Origin: Betaproteobacteria bacterium
GTDB lineage: Bacteria; Pseudomonadota; Gammaproteobacteria; Burkholderiales; Thiobacillaceae
DNA: 64,000 nt
Reading direction: 5' to 3'
NCBI GenBank assembly: GCA_020061585.1
Contig: JAGUXX010000145.1
Location: 21,278 to 85,277, forward strand
Below the pieces are notes generated by a model that saw nothing but the letters and a program-made list of their open reading frames with translations, was not told the DNA's origin and did no database searches. Shown piece after piece: positions 4,613 to 46,282 of the stretch (position 1 is the stretch's first letter; every line of letters begins with the position of its first letter). Both the position numbers and the translations under genes were made by a program.

Positions 4613-5461
4613 TTATTGCGCGCTTCTAGTCCAGCCGGATATATCGAAACCTGTTGCCTCGCTCATTTTCTGGTTGTAAGGCTGGAAGTGGCGGGCAAGT
4701 TCCAGCCGGTCTTCCTGTCTCATGGGGGGAATGCCACGGCTGACCAAAGGTGCCAACCATCGTTTCACGGTGTCAGGCAGCAGCCGTGAGGCCAGTTCCA
4801 TGAGACCCAGCTCGTGCATTTTCTGGCCGATTGGGTTGTATACGAAGCCTACATTTTTTGCCCGGGTCGCCTCCATTTCGGCAGAAGAGGGCAAGCCCAG
4901 GAAATCGAAACAACGCCGTGCCGCTTCACTTGGGGACTTCATGATTTCCTCGAAAGGCAGCAACAGGATAGCTTCCCGAGGAAAGAACGCCCAATACGCC
5001 TCCAGCTGTTGCAGGTAATGACTGGCACTCAGATACTGGGCATCCTCATGAATGGCTTGCATGAAAGGACGCTTCTCCCAGCCGGTGCGGGCATTGTGAT
5101 TGTAGTGTGAGTAGGTGCGTGACACCGGTTCACGCAGTACGTAAATGAATCTGGCGGTCGGGTTGTAGGCGTGGATTTTCTCCGGGATGCCTCGGTATTT
5201 GTCACAGACCCGCTTGAACGGGATGCCCACCTCGACGGGAGCGATGGTGTAGCTGGTGGAGGCATCGATGAGAATCTTCCGCTCCGGTTGGGAAAAGCGG
5301 GCGTGGTACCAATCCGGATCCCGCCCTTCCTTCTCGGTGAAGAAATGCGGCTCCTTGGGCGAAGACAGACAGATATCCGGATGCTGGGAGAGCAGGTCCG
5401 CCAGGGTCGTGGTACCGGCTTTCATGGCGCCGATCATGAAGACATTGCACGTTGATGGCAT
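4613..5461 (-). CDS. Sulfotransferase family protein
   Basis: MIGAMKAGTTTLADLLSQHPDICLSSPKEPHFF (5'-PSB PAPS loop) and YVLREPVSRTYSHYNH (3'-PB). Confidence 0.9.
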   Translation of the reverse strand: MPSTCNVFMIGAMKAGTTTLADLLSQHPDICLSSPKEPHFFTEKEGRDPDWYHARFSQPERKILIDASTSYTIAPVEVGIPFKRVCDKYRGIPEKIHAYNPTARFIYVLREPVSRTYSHYNHNARTGWEKRPFMQAIHEDAQYLSASHYLQQLEAYWAFFPREAILLLPFEEIMKSPSEAARRCFDFLGLPSSAEMEATRAKNVGFVYNPIGQKMHELGLMELASRLLPDTVKRWLAPLVSRGIPPMRQEDRLELARHFQPYNQKMSEATGFDISGWTRSAQ

Positions 5462-5471
5462 GGTTCCGCGC

Positions 5472-6797
5472 CTATGAGTGCTTTGAGTTTACCGGGCCGG
5501 CAAGCCGCTGTTTGGGATGCGCTGAAGCTGCGGGAGCAGGGAGATCGGACTCGTTGATCGCGTTGCTGGGTTCCAGCGCTAGTTTTGAAAGAATGATGCT
5601 CGCCGCAATCAGATTATAGTAATAGTCATAATAGGCCAGCCCAAGAAAGGCTCCGGCCGTGTAGTAACCAATTAGGCTGACTTGCAGCATGGCGGCAAGG
5701 TCGGCCACCCATGTTTTATCGGGCACCTTGCGATAGGTCTTGTTCAGACCGCTGCAAGTACGCCAAGTCAAAAAAGCTAGCAACAGGAACAGGAACAAAC
5801 CTATCCAGCCCTGTTCTCCCAGCATTTCGAAGTAAATGCTGTGGGCATCATTAACATAACTGGGGTCGGGCGAGTATTTCTGATATGTGGCCCGTGTGAA
5901 CATGTTTGCGCCGCCGCCCAGTATGTTGTCGTTGGCGACATTCATGGCGGTTTCCCAGGAAATGAGGCGTGTTTGCGCGGATTCGTCTTCCTCATAATTC
6001 TGAATAGTGTTCATGCGATCCCACCAGGATTGGGGCATGAACAGCATGATCATCATGGCAATGACGCCAACCATCATGGTTGAGCCCAGTTTGTATGGGC
6101 TTTTTATCCAGAAAAAGGCGCCAATGGCAATGATTCCAAGCAGTGCGCCACGAGATTGAGAGCCGAGAACGGCTGCGGCGGTTAACAGCATGGCGATCAC
6201 CAAACCGCGCTTTATCCATTTGTTTTGTGATTGCAGTTGTAGATAACGCATGAGTGGAATGGTCATGAGCATGGCCAGGGCGATCTCATTGTTTCCCGCG
6301 ATGAATGAGCCGCCAGGCCCGTACACCCGGGCGCTTCCACCGGTCATGATGGTGAAAATGCCGCCCTTGACGCCAAAGAAACCAATGGATAGCACCATGA
6401 CCCAAATAAATCCATCCAGTTTTTGTTTGTCGGATATCAAGGCAAGAATCAGGAAGATGAACACCTGAATCTTGAGGAAGCGATCCAGTTCCTTCATGGC
6501 TCCGGTTGGGTTGAATGCAAAGATTGTCGTTACGCATACCCACAACACCAGCAAGAGCAGAACAGTGGTTTGGGGGGACCAGATATTGAGCTTTTTCTGC
6601 TTGCCGAAAATCAGGCCAAGCACCGTGATGCCGGCAACAACCTGGGCCATCGGCAGCGTGTTCAGAACACCCCATGTTAGGCGGTGGGGGTTCATCAGGC
6701 TGATCCATGTCCACAGATAGGTGCCCATATAGGGACGGGACAGGGTCTGAGCGGCCAACCACGCAAATATGGCCAGTACGAGCAGGGCGCGAATCAA
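5472..6797 (-). CDS. O-antigen ligase-like / putative O-glycosylation ligase, exosortase A-associated
   Basis: 441 aa multi-TM; RPYMGTYLWTWISLMNPHRLTWG N-terminus typical of the exosortase A-associated ligase family. Confidence 0.85.
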   Translation of the reverse strand: MIRALLVLAIFAWLAAQTLSRPYMGTYLWTWISLMNPHRLTWGVLNTLPMAQVVAGITVLGLIFGKQKKLNIWSPQTTVLLLLVLWVCVTTIFAFNPTGAMKELDRFLKIQVFIFLILALISDKQKLDGFIWVMVLSIGFFGVKGGIFTIMTGGSARVYGPGGSFIAGNNEIALAMLMTIPLMRYLQLQSQNKWIKRGLVIAMLLTAAAVLGSQSRGALLGIIAIGAFFWIKSPYKLGSTMMVGVIAMMIMLFMPQSWWDRMNTIQNYEEDESAQTRLISWETAMNVANDNILGGGANMFTRATYQKYSPDPSYVNDAHSIYFEMLGEQGWIGLFLFLLLAFLTWRTCSGLNKTYRKVPDKTWVADLAAMLQVSLIGYYTAGAFLGLAYYDYYYNLIAASIILSKLALEPSNAINESDLPAPAASAHPKQRLAGPVNSKHS

Positions 6798-8248
6798 GGG
6801 AGTGATCCTTTAATCTTCGTCACATTGACAGGGTATTGGCTGTTCAATACCGAGGATGACGGTTGCAGGGCGCCACTGTGGGTGACTTTCTGGGCAAGCA
6901 GGATGGTGCTGACAGGATGGGTGTATTGCTGATCAGGCATAGGTAGCCGCAAATTGCGCATGGCATCAGGAGCGTTTATTCGGGCAACTTTCAGGCCTTT
7001 GGCGTTCAAGGTGTAGTTGAAGCGTTGGGGAAGTTCGAATATGTCCCAATCGGCATAGATGTCGTTGCTCGCTTCTAGATTGCTTTCCGGATGCAGCTTG
7101 CCCTGGCCAATGTATAGATTGTTGACGCTGATGACAGTCTGAGTCCCGGGTGCCGCCCTGAGAAATGCGCCGCCGAATGGGTGGCTGTTGACTATGGTGT
7201 TGTTTATCAATCTGAGCGTATTGTTTGGCTCGGTGTAGCCTTCTTCGCCGTAGCGGATGATGGTCGAGTTTTCCGTTTCGCGGCTTTGCTGAATGATGTT
7301 CCCCATGATCAGGGTATTGCCACCGTTGGGCAGGTTGACTTCGTAGCTGGCCCGGCCAAATTCATCGGTGATTCGGTTGTAAAGAACATTGCTGTTTCGG
7401 GCTCGGCTTTTGATCAGATGGCCTGTGTTGGAATGGTGCAGGTAGTTGCCTGTCATATTGAGTGTATCAATGCCGCCGGCATAGATGGCATGGCTTTTGC
7501 CCGATCGTGTGCCGTTGTATGCGAATTCACTGTTTTCTACAGTGACGCTGATGCTGCGTTTGTTACCCGTCATGATGCCGGATTCATTGCCATAAAACAG
7601 ACAATGGCGAACCAGAAGGTTTCCATTTTCAAAGCGGATTCCGGCTCCGTTCTGGTCACCCACCTTGGCGCCGATGAAGTCTATGTTGTCAATTGTGAAA
7701 TCGCCATTCCGAATGACCCAAATCGCTTTTCCACCGGCACTCTTGCCGCTTGCATAGAGTCTGGCGTGGCCTCCAACACCGCGAATCGTCAGCTTTTTCT
7801 GTGTCCAGGTGGCGACATCTCCGTAATAGTTCCCCGCGAGTATCTCGACGATATCGCCGTCCCGGGCCAGTTTTGCCGCATCTGCGATGGTCAAGGCATC
7901 GCCATTCGGGCCTACTCTGATGATGCGCTGCCCGAACGGCGCGAGGGTCGATACGGTGCTGCCCGCCGTGTCGACGATCAGGGGCGGCGGCGGTGGGATG
8001 TTGAACTGCAGGGTTTGGCGTTCCTTGAGGGAGGGCTCATTGAGTTGTGCCCTTACTTCCCAAATGAACGGCAGGGCTACCGCCTGCAACTTGGGGTGCC
8101 CGCGTAGCCGTTCTTCCACATAATCGAATAGCTCCCGGGGGGTGCGGCCCATGATCTGGTAAACCAGAATAAATGCCGCCACGCCGAGGATGGTGGCAAT
8201 AGCCAGTCCCAGAACGGCTTTTTTGAACCAGGTTATTCGTTTCACCAT
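6794..8248 (-). CDS. Right-handed parallel beta-helix repeat protein
   Basis: 484 aa with N-terminal signal anchor and repeats such as GAGIRFENGNLLVRHCLFYGNESGIMTGNKRSISVTVENSEFAYNG. Confidence 0.75.
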   Translation of the reverse strand: MVKRITWFKKAVLGLAIATILGVAAFILVYQIMGRTPRELFDYVEERLRGHPKLQAVALPFIWEVRAQLNEPSLKERQTLQFNIPPPPPLIVDTAGSTVSTLAPFGQRIIRVGPNGDALTIADAAKLARDGDIVEILAGNYYGDVATWTQKKLTIRGVGGHARLYASGKSAGGKAIWVIRNGDFTIDNIDFIGAKVGDQNGAGIRFENGNLLVRHCLFYGNESGIMTGNKRSISVTVENSEFAYNGTRSGKSHAIYAGGIDTLNMTGNYLHHSNTGHLIKSRARNSNVLYNRITDEFGRASYEVNLPNGGNTLIMGNIIQQSRETENSTIIRYGEEGYTEPNNTLRLINNTIVNSHPFGGAFLRAAPGTQTVISVNNLYIGQGKLHPESNLEASNDIYADWDIFELPQRFNYTLNAKGLKVARINAPDAMRNLRLPMPDQQYTHPVSTILLAQKVTHSGALQPSSSVLNSQYPVNVTKIKGSLP

Positions 8249-9480
8249 GACGGGTGTATTTCTTTGAAAACCCGTACGAGCAGGGCAATGCGATTGTCCC
8301 AGGAGTTCTCCTCCGCGTAGGCGCGAATAGCGCCCCGATCCCAGTCATGCGACAGGCCGGCGCGTAGGGCTTCGGCCAGGGCGGGGCCGTCGCCGAAAGG
8401 CACGATGCGGCCCAGTTCGGGTTTGCAGACCACTTCCGGGTTACCGTCCACGTCCGTGGTCACCACCGGCAAGCCGCAGGCCATGGCCTCCAGGAACACA
8501 TTGGCCCAGCCTTCCCGGCGGGTGGCCAGGACGAACAGGTCGGCGGCGGACAAGGGCCATTTAAGGTCATCCGGCTTCATGGAACCAAGGAAGCGCACGT
8601 GGTCTTCCAAGCCCAGGTCGGCCACTTGCCGCCGCAGTTGGGCTTCCATGTTGTCCACCCCGGTGGCACCTCCAACGATGAGATAGCGCAGGCGGGGGTG
8701 CTGCCTGACCAGGTCCGGCAGGACTTCGATGACCCGGTGGAAGCCCTTGCGTTCGATGAGCCATCCCACGGAAACCAGGACCCGGTCGGCCTCGTCCAGA
8801 CCGTAACGCTGGCGGGCTTCGCGCCGGTCCACCGGCTGGAAGCGCTGGCAATCCACCGCGTTGCCGATGGCCAGGGTCTTGGCTTCCGGAATGCCCAGCC
8901 GCACCGCCAGTTGGCGCAGGGAATCGGAAACGCCGATGACTTTCGACGCCTGGTTCAGGCCCGCCACGATGCGCTTCCGGAAGGCGGGGTTTTCGGCGTA
9001 GGTTTTTTCCGAACCCCGCAGGGTAATGGTAAGGGGGACGTTGAACCACCGGGCCAGCAGGCCGGCGGCATGGCCGTCCGGGTAGCCGAAGTGGGCGTCG
9101 ATGTGTTCGAAGCCAAACTCATGCTTCAGCCGGCGCAGGGTGAAATAACTGCCCAGGGCCATGAAAGTGCTGTCCCAGGCCTTGAACAGGCCCGGCAGGC
9201 TGAAAAATCGAGGGGCGTAGACGGTGATGCCCTGCTGGACTTCGACTTTGGGGGCCACGGGCCGGAAGCGGGGGCGGAACCAGCGGATCAGTCCATCAAC
9301 AGGCGACCAGGCCTTGGGGGAGACGACCGCGATGGGCAGGTGCCGCCCGACTCGGAACAGACGTTCCCGGATGAAGACGCCGGCGGTGGGGTCTTTGGGA
9401 AAGGGGAAGAGACTGGAATAGACCAGTATCCGGGGATGCCGTCCTGGGTCTTCTGCTTGTGGAGCGGTCGACGAGGTCAT
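8242..9480 (-). CDS. Glycosyltransferase family 4
   Basis: PRILVYSSLFPFPKDPTAGVFIRERLFRV ... VSVGWLIERKGFHRVIEVLPDLV ... EAMACGLPVVTTDVDGNPEVV. Confidence 0.9.
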   Translation of the reverse strand: MTSSTAPQAEDPGRHPRILVYSSLFPFPKDPTAGVFIRERLFRVGRHLPIAVVSPKAWSPVDGLIRWFRPRFRPVAPKVEVQQGITVYAPRFFSLPGLFKAWDSTFMALGSYFTLRRLKHEFGFEHIDAHFGYPDGHAAGLLARWFNVPLTITLRGSEKTYAENPAFRKRIVAGLNQASKVIGVSDSLRQLAVRLGIPEAKTLAIGNAVDCQRFQPVDRREARQRYGLDEADRVLVSVGWLIERKGFHRVIEVLPDLVRQHPRLRYLIVGGATGVDNMEAQLRRQVADLGLEDHVRFLGSMKPDDLKWPLSAADLFVLATRREGWANVFLEAMACGLPVVTTDVDGNPEVVCKPELGRIVPFGDGPALAEALRAGLSHDWDRGAIRAYAEENSWDNRIALLVRVFKEIHPSW

Positions 9481-9611
9481 GCGGCGGGCTCCCGCATGGT
9501 GTCAAGCCAGACCAGGCAGGCCAGGGGCTTGAGGATGTTCCAGGAGGCGATCTTGTCCCCCTTGTCGGGTGGATAAAGTACCCCCCCTGGCTGCAACAGC
9601 GCATCATCCAT
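9477..9611 (-). CDS. 44-aa ORF resembling the N-terminus of a TIGR03087-type glycosyltransferase
   Basis: Hand translation of the gap: MDDALLQPGGVLYPPDKGDKIASWNILKPLACLVWLDTMREPAA*; overlaps the stop of the upstream GT and the start of the downstream GT. Confidence 0.35.
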   Translation of the reverse strand: MDDALLQPGGVLYPPDKGDKIASWNILKPLACLVWLDTMREPAA

Positions 9612-10767
9612 GGCGCGGAGACGCCAGCAAGCGTTGGAAGTGGTTCACGATGCGTTCGGCATTGCCGCGCCATGTGTAACCCGAGGCCTGGATGGCGTCG
9701 CGAGCCGCTTGGCCCAGGCGCTGGCGCAGGGCCGGGTCGTCGCAAAGCCGGGCCAAGGCCCGCTCCAGGTCGTCTGGGATGTCCGGGTCGAACAGCAGAG
9801 CGTTTTCGCCTTCGCTCAGGATTTCCATGAGATTCGGCACCCGGGGGGCAACGATGGCACGGCCCAGGGCCAGGTATTCGAACAGTTTAAGGGGCGACGC
9901 GTATTCCACCACGGCGGGTTGCAGGGCCACGTCGAAGGCGGCCACGTGGCCGGGTACCAGCTCCCGGGGCACCAGGCCAGTGAAGGTGACCCGGTCCGCC
10001 AGATTCAATTCCCGGGACAGGGCTTCCAGTTCGGCCCGAGCCGGGCCTTCGCCCACCACCAGCAGATGCACGTCTTCCCGGCCCTTGGTGCCCATCCAGC
10101 GGATGATCTTGTCCAGTCCATGCCAGGAACGCACGAATCCCGTGAACCCCAACACAGTGCGATGACTCAGGCCCAATTTTGCCTTGGCGGTAGCCGAGTC
10201 CGGCGGGGCGCCGAAGTGGGCCTCGTTGATGCCGTTGTGGATGACATCCATGCGTTCCCGGGGCACCCCCGCCCGTTCCAGATAGCCTGCCAGCACCTCG
10301 GTTACCGGCAGGCACATGCTGGCCCGCTTCCAGACGTGGGCCTGGGCGCGGCGGGCCAGATTCTTGAAGGCCATGCCATCGTAACGAGCCCGCTCTTCGG
10401 CGATGGGGGCGTTCACTTCCAGCAACAAGGGCAGTTTGTAGCGACGGCTGGCCCAGATGCCGGAAAACAGGTAAAGGTTGTAGCGCTCGTAAATGGCGTC
10501 GGGCTGGAATTCCCGGATGACGGCGGCCAGCTTGCGATAGGCATGGAAGGAATAGGCCATTTCCATCAGTTCATAGACGGCCTTGGGCAGGGCCAGTTTC
10601 AGACGGGACACCCAGCCGCCTTCGTGGCCGAATTCGCTGTCGTCATGGACGCCGGGTGACACCACCCGGACCTCGTGACCCAATTGGCGCAGGGCGAAGA
10701 TAATTTCTTCAACATGGACGTTTTGTCCATCCTTGGAGGCGATGCGATGGTGGTAGAGGATTTTCAT
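9604..10767 (-). CDS. Glycosyltransferase family 4
   Basis: MKILYHHRIASKDGQNVHVEEIIFALRQLGHEV ... GFTGFVRSWHGLDKII ... LKLFEYLALGRAIVAPRVPNLMEIL. Confidence 0.9.
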   Translation of the reverse strand: MKILYHHRIASKDGQNVHVEEIIFALRQLGHEVRVVSPGVHDDSEFGHEGGWVSRLKLALPKAVYELMEMAYSFHAYRKLAAVIREFQPDAIYERYNLYLFSGIWASRRYKLPLLLEVNAPIAEERARYDGMAFKNLARRAQAHVWKRASMCLPVTEVLAGYLERAGVPRERMDVIHNGINEAHFGAPPDSATAKAKLGLSHRTVLGFTGFVRSWHGLDKIIRWMGTKGREDVHLLVVGEGPARAELEALSRELNLADRVTFTGLVPRELVPGHVAAFDVALQPAVVEYASPLKLFEYLALGRAIVAPRVPNLMEILSEGENALLFDPDIPDDLERALARLCDDPALRQRLGQAARDAIQASGYTWRGNAERIVNHFQRLLASPRHG

Positions 10768-10782
10768 TGTTGCGCTTAGGGG

Positions 10783-11808
10783 TCAGCTACCAACGAGAAG
10801 CCGACTCTTTTCCTTGAATAGCATCTGGGCCGCCTTCACCGTCAACGCACACAGCACCGTGACCGCCAGGGTCAGGACAGCGAAAGACATGAAATTGCCC
10901 TCGTGGATGTAAGCGGGGAGCTGGAGTTTTGCGGAGAGTATCTTTTCCGCGGCAAGGAAGTAGCCGTGGAGGAAGTAAACGCCAAAGCTGGCATGAGCCA
11001 GGTAGGTCAGGCGGTTGCCCAGGGGTCGGTCGATGAGGTGAAGCAGGTAGATGAGATATACGCCGGTGGTGATCTTGAACAGGAAGTGCAGGAAGTGAGC
11101 CTCCTTGCCGGACTGGGCGCCCAACAGAACCATGACCAGGCACGCTCCCGCCAGTGCCCAGTTGTAGCGCTTGAGCAGGACCAGCAGATCATTGTGGTAC
11201 TTGCTGCACAGCATGCCGAGCATATACACCGGCAGCATGTACAGCGCCTTGCTAAAGGTGGCGTAGCGGCCATCCAGGCCGGTGTGGATAAGCAGGCCAT
11301 CTCGGCCAATGATGGCGGAGAGCAACAGCAGGGGGGGGAGTAGCCAGAGGTAGGCGAACCGGGATTTGTCGATACGCAGGAACGCCGGCGCCAGCAGATA
11401 GAACAGGCATATCATGGGAATGAACCAATAAGGTGCCAGGTGCTTGCCGGTCAGAAGGAACAAACCGGCCTGGATCAGGGGGCTGTGGTCGTAGAACCCG
11501 GCCCAGACGTTGTCCTGCCGCGCCACCAGAGTGAAGTACAGGAGCGCGGGGATGGACAGCACCAGGTAGGGCAGCACAACGAATTTCGCCTTGCTGAGCA
11601 GGTATTTGGATAACTTGAATCTTCCGGACAGATGCTGGAAGAGGAAACCAGCGATGAACACGAACCAGATACTGGTTTCGTTCAAGGCGAAGTTCAATCC
11701 GTTGAACACCAGCGAGCCTGGCGGCCAATGAAAGTTCTGTAGCGCGTGAGTAGCCACGACACCGATGATGGCGATGGCGCGATAGTTGTGGATGTGGTTG
11801 AGAAACAT
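10783..11808 (-). CDS. Acyltransferase family 3 (O-acetyltransferase-like) membrane protein
   Basis: MFLNHIHNYRAIAIIGVVATHALQNF... multi-TM acyltransferase_3 pattern. Confidence 0.85.
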   Translation of the reverse strand: MFLNHIHNYRAIAIIGVVATHALQNFHWPPGSLVFNGLNFALNETSIWFVFIAGFLFQHLSGRFKLSKYLLSKAKFVVLPYLVLSIPALLYFTLVARQDNVWAGFYDHSPLIQAGLFLLTGKHLAPYWFIPMICLFYLLAPAFLRIDKSRFAYLWLLPPLLLLSAIIGRDGLLIHTGLDGRYATFSKALYMLPVYMLGMLCSKYHNDLLVLLKRYNWALAGACLVMVLLGAQSGKEAHFLHFLFKITTGVYLIYLLHLIDRPLGNRLTYLAHASFGVYFLHGYFLAAEKILSAKLQLPAYIHEGNFMSFAVLTLAVTVLCALTVKAAQMLFKEKSRLLVGS

Positions 11809-27009: not shown

Positions 27010-27017
27010 CGCCAGCC

Positions 27018-27081
27018 TCCGAGGAGCGCTGCAAGGACGACCGCATTGGTCGTCCTTAGGCTCGGTTCAAAACTGCGCTCA
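27018..27081 (+). promoter_or_regulatory. S-adenosylhomocysteine (SAH) riboswitch
   Basis: ccgaggagcgctgcaa-ggacgaccgcattggtcgtcc-ttaggctcggttcaaaactgcgctc matches the SAH riboswitch core (CCGAGGAGCGCUGC...AGGCUCGG...GCGCUC), directly upstream of ahcY. Confidence 0.93.
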
Positions 27082-27162
27082 TCTGTTCAACCCGTGCCGG
27101 GCACGGAGCAGATGAGTGCCTGCGCACCTCCGCCCGCCCGGCCGCAGATAAGGAGCACACCT

Positions 27163-32807: not shown

Positions 32808-35468
32808 ATGCGTCGAGGGTTTGCGGCTGTTGCCTTGATTCTGGGTCTGGCAGTGGCTTATTGGTTTGTTCAGCCTGGCAAGGAAGACGCTGCGTCGATC
32901 AAGGTAGATGCGCCCACCCCGATCAATCACGCATTGCTCGAAGCCGCGCGCGGCATGTTGGCGGCGCACCGGCAGATCATCGTGCTGCTGGCGGAGGAGA
33001 AGACCTTGTCGGCGTCGGAGCGGGCGGCGGCGCAGCAAGTGGGGCATGCCCTGTTCCATGAAAATCTGGCGCGTCTGGACCGCGCGGAAAGCGATCTGAC
33101 ACAACTTCTGGCGCGCCCGGGTGCGGCCCGCTTTTCGGAGCTGGAAGCGGTGCTGGCGTTCATCGAATCCGAACCCGGCCTGTACGACGCCGACCGGCTG
33201 GCGTTCCGCGAATTCCTGAATGACCTGCAGCGCGAGATCAGCCGCGACGGCAGTCTGCCCGCCGTGAAGTTGCACAAGCGGGTCGGCGAAGACCTGGAGG
33301 CGCTGGCCGAAATCGAGCGTCTGTACGACCGCGAGATTCGGGAAATCTTCAGCCGTTTCGATACCCGCGCCATCGTCCTCAAACGCGAGAAATGGTCGGA
33401 CTATGTCGCACATCTGAAGACGTTGTATCGCCGCGAGCAGATCCTGCGCGACCACGGCATCGTCCTGTCCGCCGCCTCGTCAGCCGCCCCGACGACACAA
33501 AGCAAGGACGCCAAGAATGACGTCCTGTTCGGCCGCGACCTGCCGCCCAAGACGCTGGTGCTGACCTTCGACGACGGCCCGCATCAACGCCATACCGGCG
33601 AGATCGCCGCCATCCTCGGCCAGTACGGCGTACCCGCCATCTTCTTCGAGGTCGGCCGCAATCTCGGCAGCCTCGACTCCGAGGGCCACATCAAACCCTC
33701 GCCGCGCGTTGCCGCCGCCCGCGCCCTGCTGGCGGACGGCCACCTGCTCGCCAATCACAGCCTGACCCACGCCAAATTGTCGGCCCAGGACGGCGACACC
33801 GTGCGCAAGGAAATCCTCACCACCGACAGCCTGCTCAAGGCGGTCGACCCCCAGCGCTCCAACCTGTTCCGCTTTCCCTACGGCGCCGGCAGCCCGGACG
33901 GTCTGAACACCCTGACGCAGGCCAGCTTGCGCTCGATGATGTGGAACATCGACTCGCTGGACTGGGCCGACCCCATCCCCAATTCCATCGCCGACCGGGT
34001 GTTGCGCGAAGTGGACGCGCAGGGCCGCGGCATCGTGCTGTTCCACGACATCCACGAACGCACGGTCAAGGCGCTGCCTCTGGTGCTGGGACGCTTGATG
34101 GCCGAGGGCTACCAGTTCGCCACCTGGGACGGGAGCGGTTACAAGCTCGCCAAGATCGCCACGCAGCCGACGCCGCCGCCGGTGGTCAATGCCGGTTATG
34201 GCCAATCCTGGGCCATCACCATCGGCATCGACGAATACAGCCACTGGCCCCGGCTGCAACACGCCGCCAAGGACGCCGAAACCATCGCCCAGACGCTGGT
34301 GGACAAGTTCGGCTTCAGCCCGGAGCGGGTGATCAGCCTGAACAACGGCGAGGCCACCCGCAACGGCATCCTGGCGGCGTTCCACGAGCGGCTGCAACAC
34401 AACCTGAAACCCGACGACCGGGTGTTCGTCTTTTTCGCCGGCCACGGCGCCACCCGGCACCTGAGTTCCGGCCGCGACCTGGGTTACATCGTGCCGGTGG
34501 ATTCCGACCCGGAGAAATTCGCCAGCGACGCCATACCGATGACCGAAATCCAGAACATCGCGGAAAGCCTGCCGGCGCGTCATGTGCTGTTCGTGATGGA
34601 CGCCTGTTACAGCGGCCTCGGCCTGACCCGGGGCGCCAGCGGTTTCCTGCACCAGAACGCGCGCCGCCAGGGCCGCCAGATGCTCACCGCCGGCGGCGCC
34701 GACCAGCTGGTGGCCGACGGCGGGCCGAATGGTCACTCCATCTTCACCTGGACCCTGCTGCAAGCGCTGGCCGGCCGCGCCGACCTGAACGGCGACAGCC
34801 TGATCACCGCCACCGAACTGGCCGCCTACATCGCCCCCAGCGTCGCCGGCGTCTCGCGCCAGACACCGGCCTTCGGCAGCCTGCCCGGATCGGAAGGCGG
34901 CGATTTCGTGTTCGAAGTGCGACCCGAAAACGAATTCCTCAGCGCCCAGAGCAGCCAGCTTTCCAGCGAAGCCATCGCCCTCAACAGCCGGCTCGACACC
35001 CTCCAGCCCCAAGCCACCGCCGCCGCCGCCAAACCCGCGCCAGTGGTGGTCACCGACCTGCAAGGCGAAGCGCAAAAAATCCAGTTGCCGAAAGCGGTGC
35101 CGCCCTCGCAACGCCAACTGGCGCAACGCGCCAACGACCGAGGCCTCCAGCTGTACAAGGAAAAACGCTATGCCGAAGCGGAAGCGGCGTTCACTGAAGC
35201 GCTGCGGCAGCGGCCGGATTTCGCGCTGGCCGCCAACAACCTCGGCTTCATCTACTTCCGCCAGCAAAAATATCCGGAAGCCGCGCGCTGGTTCGAGAAC
35301 ACCCTGAGCATGGACCGCTCCCGCGCCATCGCCTATCTGAACCTGGGCGACGCCTGGCTGAAAGCCGGCGAACCCGCCAAAGCCAAAACCGCGTTCCAGA
35401 CTTACCTGGAAATTGCCGCGAATGGGGCGGGGGCGGGGCATGCACGGCAGATGCTGGGGGAGTTGTAG
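32808..35468 (+). CDS. Signal-anchored polysaccharide deacetylase - caspase-like (C14) - TPR fusion
   Basis: N-terminal TM; NodB motifs TFDDGPHQ and NHSLTH; caspase motifs FAGHGA (His) and MDACYSG (Cys); C-terminal TPR NDRGLQLYKEKRYAEAEAAFTEALRQRPDFALAANNLGFIYFRQQKYPEA. Confidence 0.9.
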   Translation: MRRGFAAVALILGLAVAYWFVQPGKEDAASIKVDAPTPINHALLEAARGMLAAHRQIIVLLAEEKTLSASERAAAQQVGHALFHENLARLDRAESDLTQLLARPGAARFSELEAVLAFIESEPGLYDADRLAFREFLNDLQREISRDGSLPAVKLHKRVGEDLEALAEIERLYDREIREIFSRFDTRAIVLKREKWSDYVAHLKTLYRREQILRDHGIVLSAASSAAPTTQSKDAKNDVLFGRDLPPKTLVLTFDDGPHQRHTGEIAAILGQYGVPAIFFEVGRNLGSLDSEGHIKPSPRVAAARALLADGHLLANHSLTHAKLSAQDGDTVRKEILTTDSLLKAVDPQRSNLFRFPYGAGSPDGLNTLTQASLRSMMWNIDSLDWADPIPNSIADRVLREVDAQGRGIVLFHDIHERTVKALPLVLGRLMAEGYQFATWDGSGYKLAKIATQPTPPPVVNAGYGQSWAITIGIDEYSHWPRLQHAAKDAETIAQTLVDKFGFSPERVISLNNGEATRNGILAAFHERLQHNLKPDDRVFVFFAGHGATRHLSSGRDLGYIVPVDSDPEKFASDAIPMTEIQNIAESLPARHVLFVMDACYSGLGLTRGASGFLHQNARRQGRQMLTAGGADQLVADGGPNGHSIFTWTLLQALAGRADLNGDSLITATELAAYIAPSVAGVSRQTPAFGSLPGSEGGDFVFEVRPENEFLSAQSSQLSSEAIALNSRLDTLQPQATAAAAKPAPVVVTDLQGEAQKIQLPKAVPPSQRQLAQRANDRGLQLYKEKRYAEAEAAFTEALRQRPDFALAANNLGFIYFRQQKYPEAARWFENTLSMDRSRAIAYLNLGDAWLKAGEPAKAKTAFQTYLEIAANGAGAGHARQMLGEL

Positions 35469-37604: not shown

Positions 37605-37901
37605 ATGTCCATGCGTCCGTCCGTTGCTCTCGACATGAAGCGAAATGCAGTACGTGAAGCCGCCAGCCGCTTCCACACGGCGAACCCGCGCGTGTTCGGT
37701 TCGGCCCTGCATGGCACCGACCGTGACGGAAGCGACCTCGACCTGCTGGTTGATGCCTTGCCAGGGGCAACGTTGTTCGACCTGGGTGGTTTGCAGTACG
37801 AGTTGGAAACGCTGCTCGGCGCCCAGGTCGATTTGCTGACCCCGACAGACCTGCCCCCGAAATTTCGTTCCAAGGTGCTTGCGGAAGCGCAGCCGGTATG
37901 A
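37605..37901 (+). CDS. MntA-like nucleotidyltransferase antitoxin
   Basis: RVFGSALHGTDRDGSDLDLLVDALPGATLFDL (GSx10DxD nucleotidyltransferase motif). Confidence 0.85.
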   Translation: MSMRPSVALDMKRNAVREAASRFHTANPRVFGSALHGTDRDGSDLDLLVDALPGATLFDLGGLQYELETLLGAQVDLLTPTDLPPKFRSKVLAEAQPV

Positions 37902-37933
37902 AGGTGAATCGACTTTCCGATTAACTCGAACAC

Positions 37934-38266
37934 ATGCAACTGGCTGCGACGGATGCGTGCAGCTTCGTGGACGGCTTGACCAAGGACGAGTTCATTGCGG
38001 ACAAACGCACCCAACAAGCGGTCATCATGAGCATCATCATCCTTGGCGAAGCGGCCACCAAGGCGATGGACAGCTACGCAAACTTCGCGCAGGCGCATCC
38101 CGAAGTGCCTTGGCGCAGCATGCAAGGCATGCGCAACCGTATTGCCCACGGCTACTTCGACATCAACCTCGATATCGTGTGGGACACCGTACAAATGGCG
38201 CTGCCGGGTTTGCTGAAGCAACTGCCCGCAGTATGTCAGGCAGCAAAAATCGAAGATTCGCCATGA
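37934..38266 (+). CDS. HepT-like HEPN ribonuclease toxin (N-terminus interrupted by TAA)
   Basis: MRNRIAHGYFDINLDIVWDTV (RX4H HEPN motif). Natural ATG appears to be at 37898 (ATGA overlap with mntA), followed by in-frame TAA at 37922. Confidence 0.75.
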   Translation: MQLAATDACSFVDGLTKDEFIADKRTQQAVIMSIIILGEAATKAMDSYANFAQAHPEVPWRSMQGMRNRIAHGYFDINLDIVWDTVQMALPGLLKQLPAVCQAAKIEDSP

Positions 38267-38403: not shown

Positions 38404-38423
38404 AAAACTTGATAAAACTTGAT
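38404..38423 (+). promoter_or_regulatory. Tandem decamer aaaacttgat x2 upstream of the XRE-ImmA gene (candidate operator)
   Basis: Direct read; abuts a TTGATT-16 bp-TATAAT promoter-like pair (TATAAT at 38441-38446). Confidence 0.5.
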
Positions 38424-38453
38424 TGCACGCCTTTTCCAAATATAATTTCGTGC

Positions 38454-39578
38454 ATGGAAAAAGCCCTGAATTTCAACGCAATCCAGAGCGCATTGACCGC
38501 TCAAGGGATGAACCAGAAACAGTTGGCGGAAGCAGTCGGCACATCATCCCAATCGGTGACCAACTGGCTCAAGGGGAAGGACTTTCCCCGCCCGGCCGCA
38601 CTTCTCAAACTAGCCACCACGCTTAGCCTGACGTTTGAACAACTCGTTCAGGTCAACGATCCAGGGCGGCCTGTAGTCGCATATCGCAAGAAGGCGAATG
38701 CCAAAACAACCGCCGTGCATTTTGCCAAGGCGGAAAGCATCGGCATGCTGCTCAAACCGCTGGTCGCCTACCTGCCTGAAATTCAAGCGTTGCGCACGTT
38801 GATAACGTCCCCATCAACCGATTACGACAAGCTTCAGATCGTCGTATCGCAAACCCGAAATCGGCTGGGCATCGGACAACAAGCGGTGCTGGGGTACGAA
38901 AACCTCATCGGCGAATTCAAGGATTGCGGCGCTGTTCTGGTTCCCGTGCTTTGGGGTGCCAAGGGCAATCATGAAAACGCCCTGCATATCCGACTGCCGC
39001 AAGAAGATGTCACCTTCATCTTCCTCAATCTCGATACCCGGCTGGAAGACTTCAAATTCTGGATGGCCCATGAATTGGCCCATGTGCTTACCCCGGACCT
39101 GTCCGGCAGCAACGCAGGTGAGGATTTTGCCGACGCCTTCGCCGGCGCGCTGCTGTACCCGAAAGCGTGCGCCGAGTCCGCCTATCGGGAGGCCGTCCGG
39201 CATACGAAACCCGAGAGCGCGATCAAGGTGCTGATAGGCCAAGCCGATGCGCACATGATCTCGTTGAACACCGTCTATCAACAGGTCCGGCATTACGCCG
39301 CGTCGTCCGGCATTACGCCGCTTCCCATCCAGGAAACAGCCATACACGCAGTGCGCAACAGCCTGCGCGGGGCATTGGTCAGCGAAGCCCTGTTCGACCC
39401 GATGCCACCCTCGCCACAACGCTATATCGCCGCCTGCGAAAACACCTTCCAGACCGACTTCTTCCATGCGATAAAACGCATGATCGTCGCAAACGGCACC
39501 GGCGCAGCCTATATCCAACAAGTGCTGGATACCTCTTTGCAGGATGCCGTTGCTTTCCACGAGGCGTTGCGCCATTGA
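38454..39578 (+). CDS. XRE-family HTH + ImmA/IrrE metallopeptidase (COG2856)
   Basis: HTH MNQKQLAEAVGTSSQSVTNWLKGKDFPRPAALLKLA; HExxH motif WMAHELAHVL. Confidence 0.88.
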   Translation: MEKALNFNAIQSALTAQGMNQKQLAEAVGTSSQSVTNWLKGKDFPRPAALLKLATTLSLTFEQLVQVNDPGRPVVAYRKKANAKTTAVHFAKAESIGMLLKPLVAYLPEIQALRTLITSPSTDYDKLQIVVSQTRNRLGIGQQAVLGYENLIGEFKDCGAVLVPVLWGAKGNHENALHIRLPQEDVTFIFLNLDTRLEDFKFWMAHELAHVLTPDLSGSNAGEDFADAFAGALLYPKACAESAYREAVRHTKPESAIKVLIGQADAHMISLNTVYQQVRHYAASSGITPLPIQETAIHAVRNSLRGALVSEALFDPMPPSPQRYIAACENTFQTDFFHAIKRMIVANGTGAAYIQQVLDTSLQDAVAFHEALRH

Positions 39579-40165
39579 CTCTGGCGCTGCTTGATACCAA
39601 CGCCTATCTGCGACTGGCCAAGCGCATCCGCCCTCTGTTGGGGATTCCTTTCGGTCAGAAGCAATACGTTCTAACCATCCTCAAGCAGACCGAGGATGAG
39701 GTCAGAAAAAGTCCTCGCCTCGAATTCAACTATCCCTGGTTTTCCGACGCCGACCTGGCATCAGAACGCCTATCCAAGCAAGTCCGGTTGAGTGTGGAAG
39801 AAAGGCAACGCATCGAAGCGGCTACCAGCGTTCTGCGTGCCCATGTACTGGCCAACGTTCACGACTACACCAGTCAGGGCCGCTCACCGCCATCGCCAAC
39901 CGATTGCTTTTTGCTGGCGTTTGGCATGGTTCGTCCCGCTATCGTAGTAACCGATGACCTTGGTATGCACAAACTTGCCGAAGAATTCGAAATCGACATC
40001 TGGCACGGTCACGAACTCCTGAAAAAGATGCTCGGAGCAAAAGCCATCGACAACATCCTCATCCGGGAAATCTATACCGCGCTGGAAAACAACGACGACT
40101 TGCCGCGTACCTGGCGTGAAGCCAAACATACTGCATTCAAGAAGTTGTTCGGGCCGGCGCCATAG
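39575..40165 (+). CDS. PIN-domain-like protein (putative ribonuclease toxin)
   Basis: TTG start overlapping the previous stop; TLALLDTNAYLRLAK, SPTDCFLLAFG, AIVVTDDLGMHKLAEEF acidic motifs of PIN domains. Confidence 0.7.
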   Translation: MTLALLDTNAYLRLAKRIRPLLGIPFGQKQYVLTILKQTEDEVRKSPRLEFNYPWFSDADLASERLSKQVRLSVEERQRIEAATSVLRAHVLANVHDYTSQGRSPPSPTDCFLLAFGMVRPAIVVTDDLGMHKLAEEFEIDIWHGHELLKKMLGAKAIDNILIREIYTALENNDDLPRTWREAKHTAFKKLFGPAP

Positions 40166-40211
40166 GAAAGCGCCAAACACCTCGCGCGATGTCTAAGAAA
40201 GTGCTGATTTA

Positions 40212-40275
40212 TTCGTCATCCCTGCGAAGGTGGGAATCCAGGTTATTGATTCAACGGGGTTCCCGCCTTCGCGAG
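40212..40275. repeat. Dispersed inverted repeat (gcgaaggtgggaa ... ttcccgccttcgc)
   Basis: cgtcatccctgcgaaggtgggaatccaggttattgattcaacggggttcccgccttcgcgag; 13-bp arms with one mismatch. Confidence 0.75.
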
Positions 40276-40280
40276 ACCTA

Positions 40281-40378
40281 TGGACAGGATCAACAATCTC
40301 TTTTCTCCCGGCGCAGATAACCGATCACCAAGTTGGGCTGGCGCGACCCGTTGCTTGAACCAGCGCACATCGCCAATG
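40281..40378 (+). pseudogene. Degenerate partial duplicate of the 5' end of the AAA ATPase gene at 36283
   Basis: atggacaggatcaacaatctcttttctcccggcgcagat...ccaagttgggctggcgcgacccgttgcttgaaccagcgcacatc aligns with atggacccgatcaaaaatcctttttctcccggcgcgggt...ccgagttggtcgggcgtgacccgttgctcgaacaagcgcgcatc. Confidence 0.85.
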
Positions 40379-40562
40379 GCTTCTCCGATAAATTGACCAA
40401 AGCCACCGGCGGAATGGAAAGCCGTAAAACCTTAGCTTACTGGCAGTGCGTAAATTTGCCGGAATCTGCCCCGAATGCTGCAATGTACGGCATGACCCCA
40501 ATGCAACGATGGTGTAACTTCCGTCCCTACCGGCAGAAGCCATTACAAACAACAAATTAGAC

Positions 40563-41531
40563 ATGAGCAACCCGGTCACCTACCTCGATCCATCCCAGCT
40601 TCCCAAGAATCTGTGGGACCCCGACACAGGCCTACTTCATATTCCAGAAAGCCTCGCCAGATGCTACGAAGCTCTGATCGACCGTCACGGCTTGCGTGAA
40701 CTTGCTAGCTCCAGAACGCGTGATGACTCGCCCATAGGGGGCATCGATCAAGTCAGCACGGATAAGCATTTCGCGCAGCAGTTCGACAACTCGGTCGCAC
40801 GCGCCCAACTCTCTTTGACCAATGTGACGGGTGAAGTCGATGCGGCGTCGGATGCACTCGTGTGTGCGTTGAGTGCTGGCGCAATCTGCCTGACGGACGC
40901 CCCCTGCGGAGCCGGTGCTGCATCGTTGGCCTTCCTCAGCACCATCGCGGAATTGCGCAAGCAGGATGTGCTTCCTCGTTTGCCGCTGGAGGTAAGGCTA
41001 CTTGGGGCGGAGATTTCACCCTTTGCCCGTGATTACGCGAGGCAACTTCTGGAGGACATGCGCCCTTTTCTGGAGACCCAGGCGATCTTCCTGAGTGAAC
41101 AACTCCTAGAGTGGGACGCAACCGACCGGCTCAGTAATACCGATCTGATCCAGGCAATGGTTCGCGGCTGCCCAGAACTCAACAACCGGCTTCTTGTCAT
41201 CGCGAACTTCAGCGGCTTCCTATCCCAGCGAGGAAAACAGAAAGACGTCGAGCCACAGTTGGAGGAGCTGTTCAGACATACGTCTGGGCCGGGAAACGTC
41301 GCCATTTGGATAGAGCCCCAAATGAACAAGGTGAATTCTGACGGTGGGATATTTCACTGGTTGGCCCAGTTAACCCCCCTGAAGTGGCGCAGGTTTGCTC
41401 AACTGGCAACGGGTGGAGAAGCTAGCCCACCTTTTATGACTTCAAGCGTGAAGTTCGAATCACAGCTCGCGTTGGGGCGGCCACACCCGATCCGGCTGGC
41501 GGTTATGCGACTTGATTTGGAGCGCTCCTGA
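40563..41531 (+). CDS. Class I SAM-methyltransferase-like (Rossmann) protein, RT-associated
   Basis: ICLTDAPCGAGAASLAFLSTIAE (motif I-like), VRLLGAEISPFARDYA (acidic beta2-like), LLVIANFSGFL; stop overlaps the RT start (TGATG). Confidence 0.55.
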   Translation: MSNPVTYLDPSQLPKNLWDPDTGLLHIPESLARCYEALIDRHGLRELASSRTRDDSPIGGIDQVSTDKHFAQQFDNSVARAQLSLTNVTGEVDAASDALVCALSAGAICLTDAPCGAGAASLAFLSTIAELRKQDVLPRLPLEVRLLGAEISPFARDYARQLLEDMRPFLETQAIFLSEQLLEWDATDRLSNTDLIQAMVRGCPELNNRLLVIANFSGFLSQRGKQKDVEPQLEELFRHTSGPGNVAIWIEPQMNKVNSDGGIFHWLAQLTPLKWRRFAQLATGGEASPPFMTSSVKFESQLALGRPHPIRLAVMRLDLERS

Positions 41532-43276
41532 TGCCACGTCAACGTGCCGGCGTCCTGGCGGTCCGAGCCGTAAACCAATACCGTCGCCGGGATGTACTTT
41601 CCTACCTGGCCCTGCGTTATTACCTGAACAACGAAGCCGCGCGCACGGATCGCTGGGCGAACGAAGTCGCTACAGACCTGGTGTTGAAGCGTTCAGATCA
41701 GCCATATTTCCGGGCGTACCACTTCAAGGATGGAAACCACCGGATGGGAGTGGAACATCGCCCGATGTTTCTTCCTTGTGCGAATGAAGCCTTGGCCGAG
41801 GCAGCGCTCCTTGCCGAATGTGCCCGCCACCCAATAGTGTTTGGTAATCCTGATTTCGTATTCAGCTACCAACTGGCGACCGGGGAAGATCGCTCGGGGA
41901 TTTTTGGTCATTACTCTGCCGGCCTTCGCAATCGCCATGATGCTATAGCCCAGGCATGCGATGACTGTCCTGAAGGAACTGTCCGCTACCTCGACCTGAA
42001 GAAATTCTATCCATCTGTTCACCCCGATCTGGCATTGAAAGCATGGCGCAAGGCCGCTGACCAGGCAGAAATCGCGCCTCGGTGGAGGGAGTTGGGGGAC
42101 AAGTTCATTGGCGACCATGCCAAAGCAACGGATGGCCAGAAGCCCAGCATACTGACCGGCCCGATGTTCAGCCATCTGATCGGCAACCTGGTACTCCGCG
42201 ATATCGACGCTCAGCTTGCTGGCCTCAATGGCGTTAAATATTTCCGTTATGTCGATGACATCACGCTGGTAGGACGTGACGAGCAGATCAGGGCTGCGGT
42301 CAAGACAATACGGTCGATCCTTGGGGAGCTTGGCCTCAAGGCGCACGACGACGACTCGCCCAAGAGTTTGATCGTACCCTGCTCGGAATGGGTTCAAGGC
42401 AGGCATGACTTTCAAGATCGTCGTCGGCCGGTATCGTGGAAAACACTAATCGGTGACCTCAAGAGGCACCTACTTGCCCATCCTGATGCGCGAGATTCGC
42501 TTCATGATGCCTTTGTCGGTGAAGGCATGCGCATCCCTGTTCGAGACTACTCCGAGGCTATTTTCGAGCGAGGCTACCTGCAAAAAATTCAAGAATGGTC
42601 GCGGTTCCGCTGGTTCTGGCGAAACAAGCGGAAGGTCTCTACTGATTCCCTGATTGATCAGGCACGACAACTGCGAATCCAGTTTGAATCTGAATTTAAG
42701 GAACTCGTGGGGGAATACCAATCTGCCAACACTTATGGCAAGAAACGGCTCACCCCAAAGATCAGGTATCGCTCTGGGCGTCTTACCTACTTGGCTACGG
42801 ACGACGCATTGTTCGATCTGGCGAAAATTGCTGACTCTGTTCCCGAGCTCCATCTACAGTCGATGGTCATGGCTGCGACGGCAACAAGGAAGTTAGACGG
42901 GCTCCTGGAACTTGGAACCAATGCCGCTCAGGCGGTTGCTCAACCGCTCAGGGCTGCCGGCAAAACTGCTCATATTTCACTGCAAAGTCTTTCCGATGCA
43001 CAGATGCAAGCCCTGGCGGTTTTTCAATTGAACGGTGTGGCTGTCCAGCGTCCACCCACTCTTGATGACCAGCGATCCGAAATGCTCGTTTTTTCCGAGC
43101 AAGGAGGTACGCCGAAATTGATGAGGTCTCCAGACAAGTTCATTAGAGAAATTGCCTGCTTGCATGGCCTGAGTAAGCTGCCGCGGCATCCCTCAATCCT
43201 AGAAAGTGTGTTTGATGAGGATGAAGAGCTAGCAGTGGACGCTGTGGAACAGTTGCAAGAATCCATTTCGCTGTGA
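41531..43276 (+). CDS. Reverse transcriptase (RNA-directed DNA polymerase), non-intron, candidate defence RT
   Basis: RT motif A VRYLDLKKFYPSVHPDLALKAW; motif B ILTGPMFSHLIGNLVLRDIDAQL; motif C YFRYVDDITLVG (YVDD); no maturase or HNH motif noticed. Confidence 0.9.
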   Translation: MPRQRAGVLAVRAVNQYRRRDVLSYLALRYYLNNEAARTDRWANEVATDLVLKRSDQPYFRAYHFKDGNHRMGVEHRPMFLPCANEALAEAALLAECARHPIVFGNPDFVFSYQLATGEDRSGIFGHYSAGLRNRHDAIAQACDDCPEGTVRYLDLKKFYPSVHPDLALKAWRKAADQAEIAPRWRELGDKFIGDHAKATDGQKPSILTGPMFSHLIGNLVLRDIDAQLAGLNGVKYFRYVDDITLVGRDEQIRAAVKTIRSILGELGLKAHDDDSPKSLIVPCSEWVQGRHDFQDRRRPVSWKTLIGDLKRHLLAHPDARDSLHDAFVGEGMRIPVRDYSEAIFERGYLQKIQEWSRFRWFWRNKRKVSTDSLIDQARQLRIQFESEFKELVGEYQSANTYGKKRLTPKIRYRSGRLTYLATDDALFDLAKIADSVPELHLQSMVMAATATRKLDGLLELGTNAAQAVAQPLRAAGKTAHISLQSLSDAQMQALAVFQLNGVAVQRPPTLDDQRSEMLVFSEQGGTPKLMRSPDKFIREIACLHGLSKLPRHPSILESVFDEDEELAVDAVEQLQESISL

Positions 43277-43703
43277 GAAATCTGTACCGGCCAATACGGA
43301 AGGGCCACCGAACCAAAAGCGTCAAAGAGCTGAGTCTATTTCCTCCCCCACCCGCATAACCCCTACCCCACCCTTGGCCACCCTAATCCCCACCCTCGGC
43401 TCCGCCCGCTTCGATGCACGCGGCGAGTTGTGTCTGGCCGAACGCCTGAAGAATTACCTCGAAGACAATGCCTGGGTGTGGCACAACATTCCGGTTCGGG
43501 CCTTTCGGCCGGCATCCGGATTTCGTGGCTTTGCATCCACAGCAGGGCATTGTGGTGCTGGAGGTGAAGGACTGGCGGCTGGATACGATCGTCCATGTGA
43601 ACCGCATGCAGGTCGAGTTGTTGACTGATAGCGGCAATGTGTCGACCGACAACCCTTTCGAGCAGGTGCGCAGCTACATGTTCAGCGTGGTGGATACGTT
43701 GAA

Positions 43704-43994
43704 CCTAGATCCCTCTGTTGACCGCTCCTCAGCCCTTGAGATGTCTCATGCATACATGCGTTAGCGTCTCCGATTACGCTCACCAATTGGCTGAGCCCGC
43801 TACGCGTCCGATTGCGGGTCTGGCGGGCCGCCTGGCCGCGTTGTACTCGCAAGGAGTACGCCGGATTCGTAAGCCGCCAAAGGCGGCAACGACTCCGCTG
43901 CTCGTCGTTGCAGGGAGCGACCATGCGCCTCTTCGCGCCTTGCCAGACAACCCGCCAGACCCACACTCGAACGCGTCCAACAGAGGAATCTAGG
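43704..43994. mobile_element. MITE-like non-autonomous element (~291 bp)
   Basis: Terminal inverted repeats aacctagatccctctgttg (43702-43720) / caacagaggaatctaggtt (43978-43996), 18/19 match; subterminal inverted arms 43802-43840 and 43934-43976; interrupts the NERD-helicase frame. Confidence 0.8.
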
Positions 43995-44831
43995 TTTAAG
44001 CGCGATCCGTTGCTGGTGAACGAAGGGGGAAGCTTCAAGGGCAAGCCGGTCTTTTCTTTCGGGTATGGAGTGGTGTTCAGCAACATCATGCGCAAGCAGT
44101 TTGACCAGACCGATTTGCATGAGGTGTTTCCGTCGTCGCGCTGCATCTTCCGCGATGAGATGGCGGAGAAGGTTGACCCTGATGCGTTTCGCGAGCAGGT
44201 CTGGCGCATGGTGTCGCCGCGCATCGGGCCGGCGTTGTCGCTGCCGCAGATCGACCGAGTGCGTGCGCGGTTGTTTCCGGAGATTCGCGTCGCCCAGATG
44301 GCCTTGCCGTTTGACGAGCCGACGGCCAATGCCTCGCCCGCCGATGACCGCATGCTGGCGGTGCTGGATATGCAGCAGGAGTTGCTGGCGCGCAGCATGG
44401 GAGAAGGTCACCGCATCGTGCGGGGCGTGGCGGGTTCCGGCAAGACACTGATTCTGGCGTTTCGCGCCTAGCAGATCGCGCGCGCGGCGACCCGGCCGGT
44501 GCTGCTGTTGAGTTTTGCGAACGGCATCTCGGGTCGGCTGGAAAATGCGATGCAGGACCGGGGCGTGGTGGACAAGGTAATCACTTCGACCTTCCATGCC
44601 TGGTGTTTCAGGATGCTACACGAGTACGGCCTGCCCGCGCCCAATCGCAAGGACTTCGACGATGCCGGCGCGTGGTATGCCGCCAACGTGTTTATTCCGG
44701 TGAAATCCGCCACTTGTTCCGATGGAAAGCCTGCCAGGCATTCCAGTTGCCAGCTGCTCCTTGGATTTTCATCTTGTCGGGACATTATCCGGACGTTACC
44801 ATGAGGCTAATGTCAAGAACTGGGGGTTGCC

Positions 44832-45110
44832 ATGAGCACCTTGAACCTCTCGAAAACGGAACGGATTGATGTGCGCACCAGCAGTGCCGTGAAGCAACTA
44901 CTGCAGGAGGCTGCTGCTGCCTGTCACAAGAACGTTAGTGAGTTTCTTCTGGACGTGGGTGTGACAGCCGCCAACCAAGCGTTAGCAGACCGTCGCCACT
45001 TCACTCTCAACGATGAACAGTGGCAAGCGTTTAAGGACGCACTGGATCGACCCGTCAACACCAAGCCGCGTCTGAAGAAACTGATCAGTGAGCCCGGAGT
45101 GCTGGGTTGA
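44832..45110 (+). CDS. DUF1778 (TacA-like RHH) antitoxin
   Basis: LSKTERIDVRTSSAVKQLLQEAAAACHKNVSEFLLDVGVTAANQALADRRHFTLNDEQWQAFKDALDRP. Confidence 0.92.
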   Translation: MSTLNLSKTERIDVRTSSAVKQLLQEAAAACHKNVSEFLLDVGVTAANQALADRRHFTLNDEQWQAFKDALDRPVNTKPRLKKLISEPGVLG

Positions 45111-45613
45111 GTGCTGGGTATGAACCTGTCCGCAAACTTACGGCACAGGACCTGCTCGATGGGTTCGACTGTGGCCAGCCGGCACTGAACCAATTCTTGC
45201 AGCGCTACGCTCTGGTCAATCAGAAAGCCAACAGCGCGCAAACTTACGTCTGCTGCCAAGCAGGCGAAGTTGTGGGCTTCTACAGCCTCGCGGTCGGCAG
45301 CGTCGATCCGGAGAGTGCGCCTCCAAGGGTTATGAAGGGCTTGGCCCACCATCCGGTACCCATGATGATTTTGGCCAGACTCGCCGTCGATCAGAGGCAT
45401 CAAGGTAGGGGCCTCGGGAAAGCACTACTCAAGGACGCCCTGCTGCGTACTGCTCAGGCCGCCGACATTGCCGGTATCCGCTGCCTGCTGGTACATGCCA
45501 AGGATGATGCGGCTCGCCAGTGGTACGAAGCCTGGGAGTTCGAGCCAAGTCCGACCGACCCCTATCACCTTTTCCTGATGCTTAAGGATCTCAAAGCAAT
45601 ACTGGCCGGATAA
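45107..45613 (+). CDS. GNAT-family (TacT-like) acetyltransferase toxin
   Basis: FDCGQPALNQFLQRYALVNQKANSAQTYVCC... ILARLAVDQRHQGRGLGKALLKDAL; TTG start overlapping the antitoxin stop. Confidence 0.92.
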   Translation: MSAGYEPVRKLTAQDLLDGFDCGQPALNQFLQRYALVNQKANSAQTYVCCQAGEVVGFYSLAVGSVDPESAPPRVMKGLAHHPVPMMILARLAVDQRHQGRGLGKALLKDALLRTAQAADIAGIRCLLVHAKDDAARQWYEAWEFEPSPTDPYHLFLMLKDLKAILAG

Positions 45614-46040
45614 ACGTGGCGGGGTTGAGATGGAACGGCTGGCGCCATTCGATTGGCATCAGTGGCGTCAAGCGGACCATGACGCGCTACGTTTTCTCTC
45701 CATGCACAGCGCCAAAGGTCTGGAGTTCCCCTGCGTGGCAATAGGCGGGTTGGGTGAGTTGAAGAAGGCCGAAGCGATCGAAGACGACGTGCGCCTGACC
45801 TACGTCGCCATCACGCGCGCAACGCGCGAGGCGTTTATCACTTACTCGAACATGTCCGAGCTGGTGGGGCGGCTGGTGGCTGCGCTTGCAGGCCAAGTAC
45901 GACACCGAACGGACGCGGGAGTCCATGGCCGAAGTACTGGCGGCGATCAAGCCGCTCAAAATTCTGGAGCAGGTGTGAGGGTGGAACGTAGACAGGCTCC
46001 TATTGATCCGGCCCAATTAAACCGAGAATGCTCGCCGAGG

Positions 46041-46099
46041 CGTAGGGTGCGCCGTGCGCACCACCATCCAGCCAATCGGTGCGCACGGCGCACCCTACG
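46041..46099. repeat. Perfect inverted pair of the dispersed 22-mer cgtagggtgcgccgtgcgcacc
   Basis: Arms 46041-46062 and 46078-46099 are exact reverse complements; single copy also at 35508-35529. Confidence 0.95.
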
Positions 46100-46282
46100 G
46101 TTTCGCGGATAATTCTGGCCGAATCAATAGTCACATTTGGTCTAGCAAGATTCACACAATCAGCAACAATACTGAAAAATCAGTTGGACGCGCCTGTTGG
46201 TGCGACCGGATGAGTGCCTGGCGTGAAGCGATGACGCAACAGCCCATGGCCCGCGAAGCGAAGCAGGGAAAAGGTAGCCCGC

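Follow-up and report, generated by a model that had tools for sequence, protein, structure and literature searches.

The methyltransferase (MTase)-fold protein and the reverse transcriptase (RT) of group UG36 encoded side by side in a Thiobacillaceae contig very probably make up an anti-phage defence system, and we hold it highly likely that the two genes form one functional unit. The RT group has already been catalogued; the partner and the mode of action are not described in the literature we searched. Within the window, the 64,000 nucleotides of DNA analysed here, the partner gene occupies 40563..41531 (+ strand, 322 aa) and the RT gene 41531..43276 (+ strand, 581 aa). Both are intact ORFs with ATG starts, in agreement with a preliminary description of the region, and they meet in a TGATG overlap (41529..41533, + strand) where the partner stop codon and the RT ATG share one base, an arrangement for translational coupling.

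The PADLOC profile RT_UG36 (PDLC03775) matches the window RT over its full length, residues 7–578, with E=1.2e-183, and the next group follows at 8.5e-14. This profile places the RT in a UG/Abi (DRT) group that is already catalogued, and no difference from that group was noted. The preliminary description had proposed a candidate DRT-type enzyme, which is borne out, and had called it unclassified, which is not the case because the full-length match is to a group already present in PADLOC-DB 2023. UG35 and UG36 were reportedly defined by Mestre et al. in 2022. RT_UG36 was also the top-ranked profile for the RTs of five other loci (L009, L013, L015, L016 and L017), and membership extends to RT relatives at ~20% identity. 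That E-value, together with the conservation and invariant residues of both proteins, places the observation far beyond chance. The earlier inability to match the RT to a known DRT type stands in one respect only: the RT can be matched, to UG36, but no numbered DRT type for UG36 was found in the literature searched, nor any functional study or mention of UG36 or UG35 as an RT. The RT thus belongs to a family, an outcome that had been named as one that would speak against the original reading, but not to one for which that literature gave us a characterisation.

All RT motifs quoted earlier (YLDLKKFYPSV, GPMFSHLIGNLVLRDID and YVDD) were confirmed in the translation, and D155 and the YVDD box (Y240–D243) are invariant in 12/12 aligned loci. 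The palm, with YVDD, spans residues ~125–290. The C-terminal extension of ~300 aa, previously without a recognised domain, is indeed present and is now confidently predicted by AlphaFold as a mainly helical domain at ~300–560 (pLDDT of the RT model, 85.3). Pfam returned RVT_1 only, below threshold; the NCBIfam matches (Drt3a, intron and retron) were likewise all sub-threshold. Two other identities were rejected, UG36 being by far the best profile against either: group II intron, given the lack of a maturase/HNH domain in Pfam (as the preliminary description had also noted), and retron, given that no msr-msd-like RNA was found, even though retrons likewise combine an RT with an accessory protein.

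DRTs have been divided into class 1, which make untemplated DNA, class 2, which copy an ncRNA, and class 3, which are linked to enzymatic effectors (PMC13174585). The leanings of the window RT conflict on this point. Beyond UG36, the best profiles for its palm are UG17 (DRT10) and Drt3a, both class 2 groups with ncRNA templates (PMC12632851, PMC13174585), whereas the fold search points to Abi, DRT6 and DRT4, the matches being Abi-P2, AbiK, DRT2, DRT6, DRT4 and AbiA. The RT fold aligns over its full length to AbiK, Abi-P2, DRT4 and DRT6, its top fold matches, which share the arrangement of an RT with a helical domain C-terminal to it, but the TM-scores of these alignments are only 0.3–0.43 and identities ~10–15%. 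The predicted helical C-terminus is a candidate for the alpha-repeat domain of class 1 (AbiK-like) DRTs. These RTs differ further in being reported as RT-only systems, without a MTase-fold partner; for AbiK, Abi-P2 and DRT4, template-independent synthesis has been reported. Four RT residues, Y25, S112, Y113 and Y420, are invariant in the 12 aligned loci and might, speculatively, serve in priming.

The partner has a well-supported SAM-methyltransferase fold on the evidence of its AlphaFold model (pLDDT 90.5), in which a helical N-terminal part precedes a seven-stranded Rossmann domain, and of PDB fold matches. Class I SAM MTases (MnmM, OvsM, MrsA, BCDIN3D and Dot1, probability 1.00) make up most of the top matches, and plant SCL3 and SHR-SCR structures are also among them. 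The glycine motif quoted earlier, TDAPCGAGAASLAFL, is present in the translation, and we mapped motif I (DAPCGAG, 112–118), an acidic E150, W184-D185, NFSGF (215–219) and WIEP (249–252). Of these, G116 and G118 of motif I are invariant, position 150 is E or D in 12/12 loci, and D185 is kept in 11/12; H69, R80, R132 and E251 are further invariant polar residues. Binding of SAM by the partner is accordingly likely, as far as a model can tell. TM-scores against known MTases are low (0.3–0.4), and the structure therefore does not reveal the substrate; among the weak fold matches are RNA-modifying MTases (MnmM, BCDIN3D) and viral cap MTases. Since NFSGF takes the place of NPPY at motif IV, the partner does not look like a typical N6A/N4C DNA MTase, and a type II DNA MTase identity was rejected on the same ground and for want of a PADLOC MTase_II match. 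No credible Pfam family emerged across 13 members, a PDB sequence search with the partner profile gave no match, and no separate PADLOC model matched the MTase-fold partner.

The preliminary description would have been weakened by homologous RTs lacking the MTase-like gene or by a partner without a SAM fold. Instead, besides the predicted fold, the partner lies directly upstream of the UG36 RT in 14/14 loci with upstream DNA, a count that includes three near-identical phage copies and leaves out L010, whose contig is cut off upstream. These loci come from four bacterial phyla and from P2-like phages: UG36 relatives were found in Acidithiobacillus, Methylococcaceae, Acidobacteria/Terriglobia, Telluribacter, Paraburkholderia, Sulfurovum and Arcobacter genomes, on one Aliarcobacter plasmid and on four viral contigs. 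Junctions between the two genes abut or overlap in relatives too, and across the 12 aligned loci the two proteins remain conserved at identities as low as ~20%. Pairwise distances of partner and RT correlate at r=0.97 in a mirror-tree comparison (66 pairs from 12 loci, the pairs not being independent).

Searches with the partner alone led back to the pair. Among 72,556 plasmid records there was one match, the same record found by the RT; in IMG/VR, scanned with two single proteins, there were three viral contigs, each with the partner beside an RT; and 399 genomes of the window's phylum gave two strong matches, both pairs (the window's own copy and one from Paraburkholderia that is the same as L015). 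Two borderline matches in the same genomes, at E ~0.005, look like chance, one being a PrmC-like MTase. No stand-alone partner copy was found in the plasmids, IMG/VR or the 399 genomes. Partner and RT are inherited together, as a single coupled unit. The pair is rare, at 1/387 genomes of the class and 1/72,556 plasmids, and has no integrase or other mobility gene as a regular companion.

A second PADLOC profile, RT_UG35 (PDLC03774; 938 positions), appears to combine both parts. Its N-terminal part matches 6/6 partner proteins tested (E=1e-9 to 2e-11; 3.9e-10 for the window partner), while its later part matches UG RTs, the similarity to the window-type RT being weak (E ~4e-8). The partner match is unlikely to be a generic one, because neither negative control behaved likewise: a generic PrmC-like MTase (L129) had no RT_UG35 match at E<=0.001, and an HsdM (L130) had none among its best 25 matches. 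This suggests, at the level of profiles, that UG35 is a natural one-chain fusion of a MTase-fold part and an RT. The order would be the same as in the window, where the two are separate genes. No real UG35 fusion was found in the 399 genomes, which held only RT-domain matches and UG36-type partners, or among the fetched loci. A profile that combines both parts suggests in turn that partner and RT may act as one complex.

The surroundings of the pair in the window agree with the defence/toxin-antitoxin island described earlier. Reading along the + strand, a MntA/HepT-type (type VII) toxin-antitoxin pair (37605–38266; below NCBIfam cut-offs, above those of Pfam) is followed by a gene for an RmrA-like HTH/IrrE protein (38409–39578; PADLOC RmrA E=1.2e-14, HTH_3, weak Peptidase_M78) and a gene for a 198-aa protein (39569–40165; DUF4411 only, at E=0.11), then the MTase-RT pair and a TacA/GNAT pair. 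The genes at 38409–40165 are possibly a RmrAT-like phage-resistance pair; we treat them as context, outside the system. The 397-bp intergenic region directly upstream of the partner gene (40166..40562, + strand) is not conserved relative to other loci in BLASTN of the flanks, and a promoter scan found no sigma-70-like match in it. Downstream are the remains of a NERD-nuclease/UvrD-like helicase gene with a broken frame (43374–46112, + strand; NERD E=7e-6, UvrD_C E=7e-10), apparently interrupted by the TacA1/GNAT toxin-antitoxin pair (44832–45613). Farther upstream, at 32808–35468 (+ strand), an 886-aa protein joins polysaccharide deacetylase, caspase (Peptidase_C14) and TPR parts in an odd fusion. 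An Rfam scan of the window gave no match near the MTase-RT pair; its sole match was a SAH riboswitch at 27017–27087 (+ strand, 50.3 bits).

Other copies have similar company. On plasmid pAFAEC (L130) the pair directly follows LmuA-LmuB (Lamassu), with a type I RM system adjoining; the LmuA-LmuB-MTase-UG36 RT genes run head to tail over 6235–11716 of that locus, and the last base of LmuB overlaps the MTase start. At L009 the pair is preceded by an Eco57I-type methylase and a DUF2326 protein. In four P2-like metagenomic viral contigs (L046–L049) the MTase-UG36 pair is the sole hotspot cargo, beside a cos-like sequence, between a gpA-like gene and a gpQ-like portal gene (the L047 contig starts after gpA); the gpA/gpQ names are our reading of the translations and of the shared cos region. 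Rousset et al. described this cos-proximal gpA-gpQ site as an antiviral hotspot of P2-like phages (PMC9122126). It is the carriage of the pair by some P2-like phages in a known anti-phage hotspot that makes a defensive role so probable.

As to mechanism, the best explanation overall, and still a tentative one, is a two-protein abortive-infection DRT in which DNA made by the RT gates a SAM-dependent enzyme. Partner and RT would act as one complex, as the UG35 profile suggests. The RT would need no dedicated RNA template for its DNA synthesis, which would probably start from a protein primer, as in AbiK/DRT4 and DRT1/DRT5, and the RT and its product would control the partner. On infection the partner would serve as the effector, using SAM to methylate a nucleic acid or a protein, and would bring growth to a halt, as is proposed for the nitrilase of DRT1. 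For the partner's role as a gated effector we put the case at slightly short of even. The fuller version, which would be a DRT mechanism not described so far, is rather doubtful: an RT free of an RNA template whose DNA product switches the MTase on or off, so that methylation, and not cleavage or sequestration, arrests infected cells or alters the nucleic acids or proteins of the phage. DRT1, a class 3 system, performs template-free, protein-primed synthesis that activates its nitrilase and needs no ncRNA (PMC13275509). Its logic fits best because UG36, by its anatomy, likewise pairs an RT with an enzyme and shows no RNA gene, although DRT1 has a nitrilase instead of a MTase, is a single chain and has an RT that is not closely related.

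The partner could alternatively be an accessory within a defence pair, methylating the DNA made by the RT, the RT protein or an RNA as a mark or for stabilisation, with the DNA as the effector. Random ssDNA is itself the reported toxic product of DRT4 (PMC13314766), and the conserved SAM motifs, NFSGF in place of NPPY and the weak resemblance to RNA-modifying and cap MTases would all suit such an enzyme. The UG35-type combination, however, fits regulation in cis equally well as modification, and we regard the accessory role as unlikely. Somewhat less likely again is that the partner is a sensor or scaffold that responds to SAM/SAH or to a phage enzyme and then permits the RT to act. The partner may, on its model, be a non-enzymatic SAM binder, since, apart from the SAM fold, no catalytic signature can be recognised in it, and its lack of a credible Pfam match and low TM-scores against active MTases point the same way. 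Yet its SAM-contact positions are kept at ~20% identity, and the four invariant polar residues suggest an active site.

An ncRNA-templated, class 2-type UG36, with a template that overlaps the coding sequence or is borrowed from host or phage, we hold to be about as improbable as the sensor. It would accord with the palm profiles, and DRT10 (UG17; RT, SLATT and ncRNA) resembles the window system in having the best non-UG36 palm profile and an obligate partner gene; that partner is SLATT and not a MTase, and DRT10 needs an ncRNA for which we see no room here. In the phage contig L049, the P2-like backbone ends sharply at 4946–4948 when aligned to P2-like reference phages that carry other cargo and lack the pair (thirteen of thirteen) and resumes inside gpQ. 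The partner gene begins at 5033; the RT gene finishes at 7719, closely followed by the end of the gpQ ORF at 7723. The cargo's non-coding DNA thus amounts to 86 bp upstream and 3 bp downstream, which leaves no room for a DRT2/9/10-style ncRNA gene. Nor do the two genes show signs of a concealed RNA: between divergent phage copies, synonymous differences affect ~52% of codons, uniformly along both genes and without suppression. The upstream neighbour runs up to or into the start of the partner gene in L016, L017 and L130, and BLASTN showed no conservation of the flanks between divergent loci, a negative result for an ncRNA. No ncRNA gene adjoining the RT, the mark of class 2 DRTs, was found, and the system probably operates without a dedicated one. 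The weakest alternative, a domesticated or selfish RT cassette carried as passive cargo of mobile elements, would suit the patchy, rare distribution but is very improbable given the recurrent defence-island setting, the P2 hotspot location, a family rich in defence systems and the lack of a consistent mobility gene.

At ~2.7 kb, the phage-borne copies amount to a compact unit open to direct cloning and testing, and since it leaves no room for an ncRNA, a single experiment could decide the question of the template. DRTs have repeatedly turned out to work in unexpected ways: de novo genes, poly-dA, telomerase-like repeats and nitrilase gating. UG36, with an obligate MTase-fold partner, would add to them an enzyme class that the literature searched does not report as partnering a DRT.
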